A DNA stretch of 40,172 bases, from IMG/VR virus record IMGVR_UViG_3300046318_000277, positions 1 through 40,172 of that record. The stretch is one strand, 5' to 3'. The notes below the pieces were generated by a model. It did no database searches, was not told where the DNA came from, and was given only the letters and a program-made list of their open reading frames with translations. Positions within the stretch are counted from its first letter, which is position 1, and each line of letters begins with the position of its first letter. Source of the stretch: a virus. The translations under genes were made by a program, and so were the position numbers. This document shows positions 3,109 through 40,172 of this stretch, one piece after another.

Positions 3109-3207
3109 TTTTCTAACGTTATTCTAACCCATTTATAATCAATCTGTCAAATATATTTCTTAAATATTGTATTTTTTAGCTGATGCTTTACTTTCACATT
3201 GCCTTTA

Positions 3208-3216
3208 TGTTATAAT
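3208..3216 (+). promoter_or_regulatory. Extended -10 promoter of the replication region
   Basis: TGTTATAAT with predicted start near 3223, about 24 nt before the winged-helix gene at 3247. The -35 is weak (TTACTT at 17 bp). The short leader includes the AGAAAGCGT ribosome region. Confidence 0.6.
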
Positions 3217-3246
3217 TGAGCACTTAATTTATTAGAAAGCGTAAAA

Positions 3247-3477
3247 ATGGAATTAAATAGTTTAGCGGAAAGCATTTTAAAATATATTACAAATAGCAAC
3301 GTATCAGACGGTGTCGAATTAAAAAACATAGCTAAAGCAATGCGAGTTTCATTACCTACTGTATATAAGTATATAAAGATTTTAGTAGAAAATGAACTAA
3401 TTGAAAAGGAGTATATGATTTGTAAGGGCGGTACTACAGGAGACCGTAGAAGGGTAGTTAAAGTATATAAATTATAA
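3247..3477 (+). CDS. Small winged-helix DNA-binding protein
   Basis: A 76-residue single-domain protein. SLAESILKYITN, GVELKNIAKAMRVSLPTVYKYIKILVENELIEKE, then a hairpin with GGTTGDRRRVVKVYKL form a textbook winged helix: helix 1, the helix-turn-helix with recognition segment SLPTVYKYIKIL, and a basic wing. It resembles MarR/ArsR-like regulators and replication-initiator wHTH domains. It is the first plus-strand gene after the control region, with its own extended -10 promoter. It could regulate the divergent promoters or take part in replication, and the sequence does not decide between these. Confidence 0.75.
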   Translation: MELNSLAESILKYITNSNVSDGVELKNIAKAMRVSLPTVYKYIKILVENELIEKEYMICKGGTTGDRRRVVKVYKL

Positions 3478-3504
3478 AATAAACTATATCATAAAATTTA
3501 GTTA

Positions 3505-3513
3505 TGGTATAAT
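3505..3513 (+). promoter_or_regulatory. Extended -10 promoter of the replication operon
   Basis: TGGTATAAT, a full extended -10, with predicted start at about 3519-3520, the first base of the GTGAC/GTCAC stem in the leader. The -35 is not evident. Confidence 0.6.
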
Positions 3514-3518
3514 AATGC

Positions 3519-3597
3519 GGTGACTAGGGTAGCTCCCGAAAAGCAGATCATCCAGCTGTCTGTCACACTCTTTTATTGGATGCAATTTTATATAGGG
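3519..3597 (+). promoter_or_regulatory. Structured 5' leader of the replication initiator
   Basis: An untranslated stretch between the predicted start and the initiator gene. GTGAC (3520-3524) can pair with GTCAC (3562-3566), enclosing two smaller hairpins: GGG/CCC around a TAGCT loop (3527-3537), and CAG/CTG or CAGA/TCTG (3544-3562). This gives a possible three-way junction right at the 5' end. I do not recognise a known riboswitch. The initiator frame is open upstream from 3520, but no ribosome site supports that start. Confidence 0.42.
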
Positions 3598-3603
3598 ATG
3601 TAT

Positions 3604-4329
3604 ATGTCAAAAGAACAAATTTTACAAAACAAAAAATCATTTTTACTACACATGGATTCGTTAGATATTCTCGACGAAATGACAAATGAACAAGCTGGAA
3701 TTTTCATAAAAAGTATATTTCATTTTCAAAAAAATGGCATTCTACCAGATTTAGACGTTAGTTTAAAATTTGCATTACAATCTTTCATTAATCAATTTAA
3801 ACGTGACAATGAAAAGTGGGAAGCTGTGCGAGAGAAGCGAAGCCAAGCAGGTAAGGTAAGTGCTAATAGACGTCAACAAATGTCAACACATGTTGAAGGT
3901 GTTGAACAAAATTCAACAAATGTTAACACATGTCAACATTTGCCAACTGTTAATGTAAGTGTAAATGATAGTGTTAGTGTTAGTGATAATGTTAATGATA
4001 CTGATATTAAAAAAAATAAAATAAAAAAAATTGAGTTTGATTATTCCGGATTTAATGATGTTGAAATATTCGCAATCAAAAGATGGTTAGATTATCGGAA
4101 GGTAATCAAGAAGTCTTATAAAACCCAATTTGCATTAGATCAGTTAAGAAAAAAGCTGTTATCTTTCATTGAAGATAATGTGTTAGTTGAAGCTATTGAA
4201 CACAGCATGGCAGAAGAATGGCAAGGAGTATTTGCACCCAAGGAGAGACGATATAGTGCTCAGGAGCATAGTTTAAAGTCAGCTATTCATAATTGTAATG
4301 AACAAGATTTTGATAACAAGGAGTTCTGA
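3604..4329 (+). CDS. DUF6291 replication protein (probable origin-binding initiator)
   Basis: The N-terminal part (FLLHMDSLDILDEMTNEQAGIF, then IKSIFHFQKNG) matches the DUF6291 domain found in phage replication proteins. A low-complexity linker follows (residues about 90-140, rich in N, V, S, D), then a C-terminal helical domain. I take the ATG at 3604 because AGGGA lies 5-6 nt upstream; the frame is open from 3520. The product is 241 residues. Next comes a DnaC-like loader gene, the initiator-then-loader order of lambda O and P. As in lambda O, the middle of the gene carries repeated DNA boxes followed by an AT-rich tract, so the protein probably binds its own gene as the origin (inference). 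Confidence 0.78.
   Translation: MSKEQILQNKKSFLLHMDSLDILDEMTNEQAGIFIKSIFHFQKNGILPDLDVSLKFALQSFINQFKRDNEKWEAVREKRSQAGKVSANRRQQMSTHVEGVEQNSTNVNTCQHLPTVNVSVNDSVSVSDNVNDTDIKKNKIKKIEFDYSGFNDVEIFAIKRWLDYRKVIKKSYKTQFALDQLRKKLLSFIEDNVLVEAIEHSMAEEWQGVFAPKERRYSAQEHSLKSAIHNCNEQDFDNKEF
3871..4035. other. Candidate replication origin: 10-bp phased boxes plus AT-rich tract
   Basis: From 3871 to 3950 the sequence divides into eight consecutive 10-bp blocks related to TGTCAACAAA, for example TGTCAACACA (3881), ATTCAACAAA (3911), TGTTAACACA (3921) and TGTCAACATT (3931), with no indel. The pitch is not a multiple of three, so it is not a peptide repeat but a DNA-level pattern. A 21-bp segment at 3872-3892 recurs at 3912-3932 with two changes. 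It is followed by a GTTAGT-like hexamer stretch and then almost pure A/T to about 4035, suited to duplex opening. This is the arrangement of lambda-type origins. Confidence 0.62.
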
Positions 4330-4331
4330 TA

Positions 4332-4988
4332 ATGGTAACTACTAATTGCACAATACACGGTGATAATGTAGAGTCACTTATTAATCGTAAATGCGCTTTA
4401 TGCTACAAACAAAAAATTGAAGATCAGGAATTGATAGAATTGCAAGAGAGATTGAGTAGAATTAAAGAACTGTCATTAATACCAAAGAGATTTCGCAATT
4501 CATTATTTGATAATTACTATCCGACCAATGAAAAATCTCAACTATTTTTAGAGTTTTGCAAAGAGTATGAGTTTAATATCAATGTGCTTATGCTGGGTAG
4601 CACTGGAACTGGTAAAACGCATTTAGCGTGTTCTTTAATGGATCGAGGAATTAAAATTGGTCTTAGTTGCAACTACATCAAGTTTTATCAATTAGCCGAT
4701 ATAAAAATAAGAAAGCCAAAACTTTTCGATGAGTTGCTTATTTGTGGTTTTCTTGTGATTGATGAATATGGACAGCAGGATTCAGACTTTAAAAGCCATT
4801 TGCTATCCGAGATTATAGACCTGCGCTACGACAATGAGGTTTACACTGTGCTAATAAGCAATTTAGCGGCTGATAAGTTTCGAGATTCTATACCAGCTCC
4901 GCTATATTCGAGGTTAAAAGAAAATGTGATTGTCAAAAATTGCGAGTGGGAAGATTACAGACTAACAAAAATGGAGGTAAAGCAATGA
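4332..4988 (+). CDS. DnaC-like AAA+ helicase loader
   Basis: 218 residues. An N-terminal zinc finger is suggested by C6-x2-H9 and C21-x2-C24, as in DnaC/phage loaders of this type. Walker A GSTGTGKTHLA lies at about 88-98 and Walker B FLVIDEYG at about 139-146, with arginine-containing segments near LYSRLKENV. The family loads the replicative helicase onto initiator-bound or single-stranded DNA. It starts 2 nt after the DUF6291 gene, with GGAGTTCTGATA upstream, and its TGA overlaps the RusA start. No replicative helicase is encoded, so it presumably recruits the host DnaB (inference). Confidence 0.88.
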   Translation: MVTTNCTIHGDNVESLINRKCALCYKQKIEDQELIELQERLSRIKELSLIPKRFRNSLFDNYYPTNEKSQLFLEFCKEYEFNINVLMLGSTGTGKTHLACSLMDRGIKIGLSCNYIKFYQLADIKIRKPKLFDELLICGFLVIDEYGQQDSDFKSHLLSEIIDLRYDNEVYTVLISNLAADKFRDSIPAPLYSRLKENVIVKNCEWEDYRLTKMEVKQ

Positions 4989-5608: not shown

Positions 5609-6267
5609 AACTAATTGAAATGGTTAGGGGGGTTCTTCATAAAATAAATGCACATGCTGATAACTTTGCAACAATCAAAGAAATATGCAGAGCATTAGAC
5701 GACAAATTAGAAGACAAATTAGAATTATTAGAAAATCGGATTGCATCTTTAGAAGCAAAACTGTTAGAAACCGCCCGCAATGAGGCTGCAGTCGATTATA
5801 AGGGCGCTTATGGCACAAACGTACCAGACGAGGAAAACGAAAGCGACACGGAGGGGTTTAAGAGCGGTCTACGATATTGGATAATGGAAAAGTTTATAGA
5901 GAATAGAATTGAAAAATATACCTTGAGGGGTACGTTGGGTATGTTAAGAAATAACTTAGAGAGGAGAGGCTTTGATGTGGGCCGCATTCGAGAGTATGCA
6001 GGCATTTATCAAGCCACATTAGGAGATATTAAAATAGAGTGGCATGAAGAAGTAAGATCCTATAATTGTACACTTGGTGCAAGTATAGTTATACAAGTAT
6101 TGAATAATAAAGTTAGTTTTAAAGTTGAAGAAATAACACCAGAATTAGTATATGATATTATGTCCTACGTTGACAACTATAAACATATAGAACAAATTGT
6201 AAGAGAAGAAAAATTAAAAATTGTAAGAGAAGAAAAATTAAATAAAGTTTTTGGAGTGGAAAAATGA
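5605..6267 (+). CDS. Hypothetical protein, coiled coil plus domain shared with 8417-8800
   Basis: 220 residues. The N-terminal third is helical and contains DDKLEDKLELLENRIASLEAKL, a likely coiled coil built partly from a tandem DKLE duplication. The C-terminal half (MLRNNLERRGFDVGRIREYAG, GDIKIEWHEE, CTLGASIVIQ, then a helical tail ending KLNKVFGVEK) aligns by eye with most of the protein at 8417, including the same KLNxxFGVE ending. A 24-bp tandem duplication gives IVREEKLK IVREEKLN near the end. It starts with an ATGA overlap with RusA. Function is unknown. Confidence 0.65.
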   Translation: MKLIEMVRGVLHKINAHADNFATIKEICRALDDKLEDKLELLENRIASLEAKLLETARNEAAVDYKGAYGTNVPDEENESDTEGFKSGLRYWIMEKFIENRIEKYTLRGTLGMLRNNLERRGFDVGRIREYAGIYQATLGDIKIEWHEEVRSYNCTLGASIVIQVLNNKVSFKVEEITPELVYDIMSYVDNYKHIEQIVREEKLKIVREEKLNKVFGVEK

Positions 6268-6554
6268 ATAAAAAATTAAGATGGAATAGAGTTACTATGT
6301 CTCATTGGGTTGATAATCGCCAAGTTGATATGCTCGGATGGATTGCTAATGTAATATCGACACGGGATATAAAAGTTGATATACTTATCGCAGAATGCGG
6401 CAATATAGGGGATAAATATTATCGAATTTGCTTAGACGAAAACACTGAAGGTTCAATCATGGAAGATATAGGAGATGCTGATACCCTGAAAGCGGCTAAA
6501 GAATTAGCACAAAAAGAATGTGATTTATTTTGGAGTAGAAACAATGACAACTAA
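6264..6554 (+). CDS. Hypothetical phage protein
   Basis: 96 residues, unknown. The pattern YYRICLDENTE then KAAKELAQKECDLFW (a strand followed by an amphipathic helix with AK and Q spacing) recurs in the next protein (FGWYIIKH then AKNQVQMLWDEYV), suggesting two related members of a small phage family. It overlaps the preceding gene by 4 nt and has the ribosome site GGAGTGGAAAA. Confidence 0.6.
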   Translation: MNKKLRWNRVTMSHWVDNRQVDMLGWIANVISTRDIKVDILIAECGNIGDKYYRICLDENTEGSIMEDIGDADTLKAAKELAQKECDLFWSRNNDN

Positions 6555-6617
6555 ACAGGAAATTAAGGTAAAAATTGGAGTAGAAACAATGACAACTAAA
6601 CAGGAAATTAAGGTAAA
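6531..6617 (+). repeat. Tandem duplication of a ribosome site and start codon (about 44 bp x 2)
   Basis: GGAGTAGAAACAATGACAAC and the following 24 bases occur twice in direct tandem (about 6531-6574 and 6576-6617). Both copies contain the Shine-Dalgarno, the ATG and the codons for MTTKQEIKVK in the same frame, so the gene has two equivalent start sites. Confidence 0.9.
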
Positions 6618-6831
6618 GAAACTTGTGTGGGAAGATAGTAATGGCGGTTCAATAGCAATAAATTGCCCGTATTATATCTGCGGTTCCGTTGATATTAATT
6701 TTGGGTGGTATATTATCAAGCATAGAACTAACGATTGGGAAGACTGGATAGGTGGTAATTTACAGTATGCCAAGAATCAAGTACAGATGCTATGGGATGA
6801 ATACGTGCTGAGTCTAGTGGAGGTGTTATGA
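6544..6831 (+). CDS. Hypothetical phage protein with duplicated start
   Basis: 95 residues from the ATG at 6544, or 80 from the equivalent ATG at 6589. Each start has GGAGTAGAAACA in front, because the start region was duplicated in tandem. The C-terminal part (GWYIIKHRTNDWEDWIGGNLQYAKNQ...LWDE) resembles the preceding gene's product, so the two may be paralogues. The function is unknown. The GGAGG of the next gene lies in its last codons. Confidence 0.6.
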   Translation: MTTKQEIKVKIGVETMTTKQEIKVKKLVWEDSNGGSIAINCPYYICGSVDINFGWYIIKHRTNDWEDWIGGNLQYAKNQVQMLWDEYVLSLVEVL

Positions 6832-7089
6832 ATGTTAACTAGCGAATTAATAAAAGAACTTCAATGGTCGTTAGAAAAATACGGAGATTGTGAAGTGTTA
6901 CTACAAATGGCTATATTTAGTTTTCAAATTGACCATAATGTAAATTCTATTTGCCTCTCTCAAGCAACCACATTTGAAATCAAAGCTAAAGTCGATGAGG
7001 ATAAATATAGGCATATCTATGAGAATATGAAAGACTACTTTGAACGCCAGAAAACTGCTGCTATGGCTAATCAGTGGAGTAAAATATGA
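6832..7089 (+). CDS. Hypothetical phage protein
   Basis: 85 residues. The opening LTSELIKELQWSLEKYGDCEVLL resembles a widespread group of small phage proteins that begin with a helix followed by a (Y/H)GD-x-(P/E)V strand. The product at 8793 has a similar plan. No biochemical role is known to me. GGAGGTGTTATGA precedes the ATG, and its TGA overlaps the methyltransferase start. Confidence 0.58.
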   Translation: MLTSELIKELQWSLEKYGDCEVLLQMAIFSFQIDHNVNSICLSQATTFEIKAKVDEDKYRHIYENMKDYFERQKTAAMANQWSKI

Positions 7090-7574
7090 ATAACGTACAT
7101 TTTAGTAGTAGATCTGATGAGCTTGATATACTAAACCGAATACATCATATAGACTGCTTAGAGTTTATGAAGAAAATACCCGACAAATACTTTGATTTAT
7201 GCCTAACTGATCCGCCGTATGGGCTTGGAGATAGACTATGTAAGGGAACGGGTAAACATATGCCCACACTTTCATCCTGTGAGTATGCGTGGACATCATT
7301 TGATAAACCTGCTAAAATGTTTTCAATGAGATCTACTGACTTAAATAGATTTCATCCAACCCAGAAGCCTACAGAATTAATGAGGTTTTGCTTAAATTAT
7401 GCAAAAACTAATATGGAGCATAAAATATTTGATCCTTTCATGGGTTCTGGAACAACTGCCGTAGTATGTAAAGAATTAGGGTTAAAATGGGCTGGATGTG
7501 AGTTAGATGATACTTTCTTTCATAAAGCAACAGAACGTTTAAAAATTACACAGCCGGATATGTTTGGTGTATAA
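7086..7574 (+). CDS. Short DNA (adenine/cytosine-N4) methyltransferase, possibly degenerate
   Basis: 162 residues with the motif order of beta-class N6/N4 methyltransferases: catalytic motif IV DPPYGLG (about residues 41-47), then RFHPTQKP, then the SAM-binding motif FDPFMGSGTTAV (about 117-128) and GCELD. Family members of this type are usually well over 200 residues. Here the segment after motif IV that normally carries conserved Rossmann strands and part of target recognition (the WDK...GGNYF region) is absent, and CEYAWTSF follows almost directly. The reading frame itself is clean. It may be an internal-deletion form that is inactive or needs a partner (inference). It is the last gene before the late promoter. 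Confidence 0.8.
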   Translation: MNNVHFSSRSDELDILNRIHHIDCLEFMKKIPDKYFDLCLTDPPYGLGDRLCKGTGKHMPTLSSCEYAWTSFDKPAKMFSMRSTDLNRFHPTQKPTELMRFCLNYAKTNMEHKIFDPFMGSGTTAVVCKELGLKWAGCELDDTFFHKATERLKITQPDMFGV

Positions 7575-8460: not shown

Positions 8461-8800
8461 AATGACAGCCAGTGAGATTTTAGGTAGGCTTAGAGATGAG
8501 CTAGAACTTAAAGGGTTTTTTATAACAAATATTTGGCGCAGTGGCGGCTATGACCCCAATGCTTATGAGTCTTTCTATAAAGGTATAGAAATAACATGGA
8601 TATACCCGACAGAAAATCTGGTTACCTGCTATCTAGGTGTACGAATTAAGGATATATATCATAGTTTTTATGGAGAAGAAATAGATATAAATTTTGCAGA
8701 CAAGCTACTCCGCCATATTGATGTCTATCTAGCTGCTAGTCGTATAAAAAAACCCATAGATGGCAAGCTTAATGATTTATTTGGAGTAGAAAATGGATAA
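8417..8800 (+). CDS. Hypothetical protein, paralogue of the C-terminal half of 5605-6267
   Basis: 127 residues from the ATG at 8417. The ATG at 8462, 1 nt after the previous stop, is an alternative giving 112 residues, and neither has a strong ribosome site. ILGRLRDELELKGFFITNIW, GIEITWIYPTENLVTCYLGVRI and the tail KLNDLFGVENG line up with MLRNNLERRGFDVGRI, GDIKIEWHEEVRSYNCTLGASI and KLNKVFGVEK of the protein at 5605, so the two share a domain of unknown function. Its last codons contain the GGAGTAGAAA ribosome site of the next gene. Confidence 0.62.
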   Translation: MKDKDTKLIKKSTTRMTASEILGRLRDELELKGFFITNIWRSGGYDPNAYESFYKGIEITWIYPTENLVTCYLGVRIKDIYHSFYGEEIDINFADKLLRHIDVYLAASRIKKPIDGKLNDLFGVENG

Positions 8801-39943: not shown

Positions 39944-40172
39944 TTATATACCGTAACCGTAACCGTCACCGTAACCGTAACCGTCACCGTAACCGTCACC
40001 GTAACCGTAACCGGAACCGGAACCGTAACCGTAACCGGAACCGGAACCGTAACCGGAACCGGAACCGTCACCGGAACCGTTACCGAAACCGTAACCGTAA
40101 CCGTAACCGTCACCGTAACCGTCACCGTAACCGTAACCGTAACCGGAACCGGAACCGTCACCGGAACCGTTA
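39944..40172 (-). CDS. Glycine-dipeptide-repeat protein, C-terminal part (enters from right edge)
   Basis: Minus strand. Entering from the right edge the frame reads N-G, then alternates Gly with Ser (10), Tyr (17), Asp (7), Asn (2) and Phe (1) over 37 pairs, and ends GYGYGI and a TAA at 39946-39944. The stop is 33 nt before the Sak4-like start. The first base at the edge completes the codon left open at position 1 of the window, so the two pieces are in frame if joined. The join gives S-N in place of S-G-N, a single break of the alternation, which may reflect assembly across the repeat. An overlapping VTVTV/VPVP frame exists but has no supported start. Confidence 0.72.
   Translation of the reverse strand, partial: NGSGDGSGSGYGYGYGDGYGDGYGYGYGFGNGSGDGSGSGYGSGSGYGYGSGSGYGYGDGYGDGYGYGDGYGYGI
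39950..40172. repeat. Degenerate hexamer tandem repeat, right end
   Basis: ACC-GNN hexamers without interruption to the window end, of the same five kinds as the left end. Positions 40014-40139 equal 1-126. Positions beyond 40139 (to 40172) match the left side only after a 12-bp gap. Confidence 0.97.

Follow-up and report, generated by a model that had tools for sequence, protein, structure and literature searches.

A probable replication origin inside the DUF6291 initiator gene of a phage, with box sequences that covary with a short protein segment among relatives

The window, i.e., the whole stretch of DNA analysed here, is virus record IMGVR_UViG_3300046318_000277, positions 1-40,172 (40,172 bp). 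The locus consists of a putative initiator gene that carries an array of short boxes and a hexamer tract within its own coding sequence, followed in turn by genes for a DnaC-like helicase loader and a RusA-like resolvase. The features are listed below, where F and R denote direct and inverted boxes.

3604-4329, plus strand: putative initiator gene, coding for the DUF6291 protein (241 amino acids from the ATG at 3604; PF19808 match and PHROG O-like/primosomal matches)
3637-3861, plus strand: DUF6291 domain, amino acids 12-86 (Pfam match; all-helical by prediction)
3820-3870, plus strand: proposed reader segment EAVREKRSQAGKVSANR, amino acids 73-89, end of the predicted long helix (covariation with box class)
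3871-3950, plus strand: box array, layout F F R R F F F F on a 10-bp grid (self-match, shuffles, core positions)
3873-3878, plus strand: box 1, core TCAACA
3883-3888, plus strand: box 2, core TCAACA
3891-3896, minus strand: box 3, inverted core, read as TGTTGA on the plus strand
3900-3905, minus strand: box 4, inverted core, read as TGTTGA on the plus strand
3913-3918, plus strand: box 5, core TCAACA
3923-3928, plus strand: box 6, core TTAACA
3933-3938, plus strand: box 7, core TCAACA
3943-3948, plus strand: box 8, core CCAACT
3949-4007, plus strand: hexamer tract (GTTAAT/GATAGT-like), candidate unwinding element (sole such run in the genome; codons frozen in relatives)
4008-4035, plus strand: A-rich run 3' of the hexamers
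4332-4988, plus strand: DnaC-like helicase loader gene (phrog_50, E 5e-38)

The initiator protein scored 62.7 bits against PF19808 (DUF6291), for which the cut-off is 27.2, and all 45 members of alignment A5 also matched this family. DUF6291 was the only Pfam match on the protein. The reading frame is also open from a GTG at 3520, and the PHROG O-like match corresponds to amino acids 116-257 of the resulting 269-residue translation, which places it outside the DUF6291 domain. Comparison of the DUF6291 model fold with the PDB returned no match with E below 1, and hence none to a known DNA-binding fold, which counts against the reading given below; the structure prediction for the linker was of low confidence.

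Several other features of the window may be recorded here. Both of its ends (1-162 and 39950-40172) carry AACCGT/ACCGGA hexamer arrays in one and the same orientation, which encode a Gly-rich ORF (MSKVNSGSGFGNGSG...) on the minus strand from near position 170; thus, the genome is probably circular or permuted, and was opened within this repeat to give the contig. The ORF at 7086-7574 codes for a DNA methyltransferase of 162 amino acids that matched N6_N4 methylase families in their N-terminal and also in their C-terminal parts, as though an internal portion had been lost. Small ORFs contain exact tandem duplications, one of 24 bp (6194-6242) and one of 45 bp (6530-6617), the latter being a second copy of the start region of the ORF at 6520-6831.

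The box array is located in the linker, 3' of the DUF6291 domain. The first-pass annotation had described it as eight boxes at an exact pitch of 10 bp, out of phase with the codons. The array and its phase were borne out, and so were six of the boxes: the direct cores at 3873, 3883, 3913, 3923, 3933 and 3943 are separated by exact multiples of 10 bp. The two middle boxes, at 3891 and 3900, are reverse complements and lie 2-3 bp off the grid. Since 10 is not divisible by 3, one and the same box is read in all three codon frames. In lag-10 self-match (42-43 of 70 positions) the array ranked highest among all 80-bp stretches of the window, and TCAACA/TGTTGA occurred as six exact copies within 66 bp at the array, as against 39 over the entire window. 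Structured RNA was dropped as an explanation of the array, since the Rfam search of the window yielded no structured-RNA match and the DNA fold z at the site was -0.5.

Hexamers and A/T-rich DNA had been noted by the same annotation to follow the boxes, and this was indeed found. Hexamers of the form G[AT][TA]A[AG]T extend over 48 bp from 3949, with a repeat period of 6, and no other such run exists in the genome. In duplex stability, the 80 bp from 3951 rank within the lowest 0.3% of the window, several other regions being even less stable. A hexamer tract followed the array in 66 of 70 non-redundant relatives, although the number of hexamers differed among them. Codon choice in these tracts was nearly invariant: aspartate was encoded by GAT in a ratio of 247:1, compared with 598:250 elsewhere in the same genes, and serine by AGT in 150 of 152 cases, compared with 131 of 823 elsewhere.

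Members of the DUF6291 family were found in phages and prophages of Bacteroidota, Gammaproteobacteria and others, it being noted that sampling in IMG/VR is biased. Dozens of diverse DUF6291 genes carried, in the same linker and in varied codon phases, arrays at spacings of 9-10, 20 or 30 bp together with the hexamer tract; the spacings of same-strand boxes in relatives were 10 bp in 101 instances, 9 bp in 40, 20 bp in 43 and 30 bp in 7. The boxes fell into classes, the regular expressions of which were written after inspection of the linkers: class A (AACCCA/AACCGA, usually with inverted TGGGTT), class B (AGCAAA or TAGCAAA, all direct), class C (CAACA; the window and Olleya and Cellulophaga phages), class D (TACCA/TGGTA) and class E (TCGCA), the last two represented by three proteins each. 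Class C was extended by Flavobacterium phage 11b (L178, CAACT) and a gut phage (L180, GAACAA). Inverted boxes were present in classes A (21 of 30 arrays), C and D, and absent from class B. In all of five complete phage genomes, boxes were nowhere as densely clustered as at this site, and the hexamer run was unique in four. A clear array was not seen in the relatives L107-L109, L017 and L110. Taken together, this phage and over a hundred of its relatives most probably carry origin-like sites inside the initiator gene, as judged from sequence comparison.

The search also reached the edges of the family. The combined alignment of N-terminal regions (A1) proved too heterogeneous for use in back-translated searches. 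Lin1244_N (PF14297) genes were considered as carriers of the same cassette and set aside, their three loci having no clear array. The plasmid collection returned one distant DUF6291 relative, L387, on the Spirosoma sp. plasmid NZ_CP056033; the element is circular, 17 kb long, and carries ParB, SSB, ERF and terminase genes besides the distant DUF6291 match, i.e., it is a small phage-like plasmid, and it was rejected as an independent plasmid replicon. Three distant DUF6291 proteins (L105, L106 and L172) have a GGAPKGNRNA- or GGAPRGNQNA-like segment ahead of AACAACC-rich DNA, and possibly represent further reader/box classes. In an apparently unrelated phage contig (L003), boxes of sequence TGTCAACA recur every 10 bp (TGTCAACAAATGTCAACAAATGTCAACA) in apparently non-coding DNA on the reverse strand of 8769-8796 and in its vicinity, accompanied by inverted TGTTGACA copies, and this site is possibly an origin with similar boxes that lies outside a gene.

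The array was compared with what the encoded peptide alone would produce. With peptide and codon usage fixed, the window linker had a lag-10 match of 0.515 versus 0.424 and 37 inverted 5-mer pairs versus 12.2, neither of which was reached by any of 200 synonymous shuffles. In 70 non-redundant relatives, where the peptide was likewise fixed and synonymous codons were reshuffled within each gene, the self-match exceeded the shuffles at lags of 9, 10, 19, 20, 29 and 30 with z values of 7.7, 16.8, 4.3, 13.0, 5.6 and 5.0, respectively, and inverted 5-mer pairs numbered 11.6 against an expected 6.4 (z 12). No lag-10 or lag-20 excess was seen in the N-terminal or the C-terminal zone of these genes. 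Among protein pairs of 40-60% identity, which are not mutually independent, identical residues retained the identical codon at a frequency of 0.73 in the boxes and 0.83 in the hexamers, compared with 0.49 in the core, reader and C-terminus. The excess over synonymous shuffles and the frozen codons thus establish that boxes and hexamers are held by a constraint at the DNA level, and that the array is not explained by the peptide. They also bear out an earlier expectation that boxes would be kept while the peptide differs: the arrays of relatives occupy the same linker in different codon phases, with frozen synonymous sites.

The type of box was found to covary with about 14 residues immediately ahead of the array, at the end of the predicted long helix. 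The segment reads NxxNGxxGGRPK with AACCCA boxes, RxxAGxxGGKQK or RKExGRKGGLxK with AGCAAA boxes, [RK]SxAGxxSAxxR with CAACA boxes and KNRLIAEKRY with TACCA boxes. In partial Mantel tests on 64 proteins, box type correlated with the segment when the core was controlled for (r 0.54, p 0.0005), but not with the core when the segment was controlled for (r 0.03, p 0.26); on 135 proteins, the respective values were r 0.69 (p 0.002) and r 0.055 (p 0.008). By nearest neighbour, the segment predicted the box class of 132 of the 135 proteins, compared with 94 by the core. It is to be noted that the post hoc classes underlie these Mantel and nearest-neighbour results as well as the labels used for spacing and for the C-terminus, whereas the shuffles and the scans with box DNA are independent of them. 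When viral sequences were scanned with AACCCA box DNA alone, 82 of 83 non-redundant DUF6291 genes had the class-A reader motif; with CAACA box DNA alone, 46 of 46 had the class-C motif, and no crossover of the two motifs was seen among these 83 and 46 genes. Of the 86 loci in the class-C scan, 27 were something other than DUF6291 genes, in many cases long unrelated ORFs, and the first class-B DNA pattern was too short, only 29 of its 55 matches being DUF6291 and the rest chance coding matches. Placed on the core tree, in which few branches are well supported, box class required 30 changes where the minimum is 5. For example, L028 is of class D within a class-B clade (support 100/93), and the core of the window protein is nearest to class A and B proteins while its reader and boxes are of class C. 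Four relatives (L024, L025, L030 and L166) have hybrid reader segments (e.g., VRKNAGLKGGRPP, VRKESGRKGGLMK) together with arrays that mix AACC-type and AGCAA-type boxes.

We consider it likely, with a probability of roughly 0.8, that 3871-4035 is the replication origin of this phage, placed in the linker of its own DUF6291 initiator gene, where the boxes would be bound through amino acids ~73-89, the hexamer/A-rich tract would be opened, and the C-terminal part would hand over to the loader. Origin use, protein binding and unwinding are what we infer from the constraint, the helical spacing, the single site in each genome examined, the gene context and the covariation that the comparison shows. 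In the proposed sequence of events, initiator protomers would occupy boxes spaced by one helical turn; their assembly may then strain and open the adjacent hexamer/A-rich tract, as its low duplex stability suggests; and the C-terminal part may recruit the helicase or loader encoded next door, as suggested by the gene context. In 62 loci of relatives, the gene 3' of the DUF6291 gene was a primase or helicase in 38, DnaB-like in 35, DnaC-like in 6 and P-like in 3, these counts being overlapping. The first-pass annotation had proposed both an origin inside the initiator gene and a filament-like or wrapped initiator complex. The former was well supported, namely by the conservation of boxes and hexamers and by the replication genes nearby, the role as origin being read from the comparison. 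The latter was weakened: the class-B arrays are all direct, but inverted boxes occur in the window and in 21 of 30 class-A arrays, and the two inverted middle boxes argue against a single polar filament across all boxes in this phage. GC skew, which had been suggested as a check, was undecided. Its minimum was near the array in three of five genomes (the window, Olleya phage Harreka_1 and phiA005), where the gene strand also flips, but away from it in two (BT-1011 and 1.013.O), where no strand flip occurs at the array; being confounded with gene strand and inconsistent over the five genomes, it was rejected as origin evidence. Involvement of DnaA was also rejected, since no DnaA box with ≤1 mismatch to TTATCCACA was found within 3200-4400.

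Other explanations of the array were weighed against the origin. Slippage or repetition at the protein level would make the DNA pattern a by-product of a flexible, low-complexity linker peptide; the linkers are indeed of low complexity (SDSDSD, NVNVND) and the hexamer number is variable, but the period of 10 is out of codon phase, the pattern is beyond the reach of synonymous shuffles, inverted boxes encode unrelated peptides, and synonymous sites are better conserved than in the folded domains, all of which make this account very improbable. That the array is an operator, through which the DUF6291 protein or another regulator controls transcription of the replication genes while replication starts elsewhere, appears unlikely. 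Clusters of direct and inverted short boxes would also suit cooperative repressors; nonetheless, in every relative that has an array it lies in the middle of the gene and not at a promoter, it is tied to a hexamer tract with frozen codons, and no denser cluster of such boxes was seen in any of the genomes examined. Packaging and partition sites can also be arrays of short boxes, but a helicase loader and a resolvase are the neighbours in the window, and helicases, loaders and primases follow in relatives, so that we give such a site hardly any credence.

A separate question is what reads the boxes. The origin could be as described but be read by the DUF6291 core, by the C-terminal part or by another phage or host protein, the match of segment and boxes then reflecting linkage within about 150 bp. 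Indeed, the reader segment is the closest physical neighbour of the boxes, and common descent and close linkage contribute to the association. However, the correlation does not decay gradually: it is 0.14 in the window that starts six residues before the segment, in a very conserved stretch that lowers this value, but reaches 0.52 and then 0.76 in the two windows that follow. The C-terminus, on the opposite side of the array, was uninformative about box class (r 0.15, joint coefficient -0.02), and DnaA boxes are absent from the vicinity, as stated above. We therefore regard a different reader as rather unlikely. Among 63 other loci, none had a homologue of the upstream wHTH ORF (3247-3477), which therefore does not serve as a reader of boxes in general. 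The abrupt rise at the segment, the lack of information in the C-terminus and the conflicts between core and box favour, without proving, recognition by the segment and exchange of cassettes. Thus, the boxes are probably read by the basic end of the long helix, amino acids ~73-89, and reader and boxes look like one exchangeable cassette. A more far-reaching proposal, which we put forward tentatively and at somewhat less than even odds, is that this short basic helix end specifies the box ([RK]SxAGxxSA with CAAC, NxxNGxxGGRP with AACC and RxxAGxxGG[KL] with AGCAA, hybrids going with hybrids), as a decodable replication-compatibility cassette; since about 150 bp encompass both reader and boxes, origin specificity could be exchanged in one recombination step. 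The spacing of the reader motif is similar to that of the bZIP basic region, a resemblance only.

The origin reading gives DUF6291, a family of unknown function, a testable role as replication initiator, and would allow the position of the origin in each DUF6291 phage or prophage to be predicted to within ~150 bp. The codon-frozen hexamer tract becomes a defined candidate for the strand-opening step, and at least five natural reader/box pairs provide material on initiator-origin recognition and on changes in origin specificity. In the literature searched, from which subscription journals were largely absent, DUF6291 was not mentioned and no description of such a layout was found.

Known systems offer partial parallels. 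The lambda and Stx phages have four (lambda) to six (Stx) iterons and an AT-rich tract in gene O, each lambda iteron being itself an inverted repeat (PMC7466680). The present locus resembles lambda O and ori-lambda in that candidate initiator sites, together with an easily melted tract, lie midway within the initiator gene and a loader gene is adjacent; the easily unwound tract beside the repeats is represented here by the 80 bp from 3951. It differs in that the boxes are single, with a non-palindromic core of 5-6 bp (TCAACA), placed one helical turn apart in mixed orientation; that the tract consists of codon-frozen hexamers, whereas that of lambda is plain AT-rich DNA; that the N-terminal domain is DUF6291, without the N-terminal domain of the lambda O family by Pfam; and that the classes differ in box sequence, in step with a short protein segment next to the array. 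In RepA_N plasmids such as pSK41, the Rep boxes are central in rep and code for a dispensable linker between the N- and C-terminal domains, and in the chimeric pPR9 initiator the N-terminal domain and the origin were exchanged jointly (PMC5703833). The boxes of DUF6291 genes likewise lie mid-gene in linker-coding DNA; however, RepA_N proteins have a winged HTH (PF06970), to which Pfam found no match here, and the DUF6291 box type follows a segment of ~14 residues that is shuffled relative to the remaining N-terminal domain. The DnaA-trio is a repeated trinucleotide, 3'-(G/A)AT-5', that adjoins DnaA boxes (PMC10797057); it is similar in that double-stranded boxes are followed by a short-period repeat, possibly bound as a single strand, but the repeat here is of 6 nt (GATAGT-like) and 3200-4400 has no DnaA box at ≤1 mismatch. 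Overall, the system would function like the lambda-type and RepA_N layouts and belongs to neither family by domain content, and it is distinguished from both by its one-turn pitch, its frozen hexamer tract and its series of reader/box pairs.
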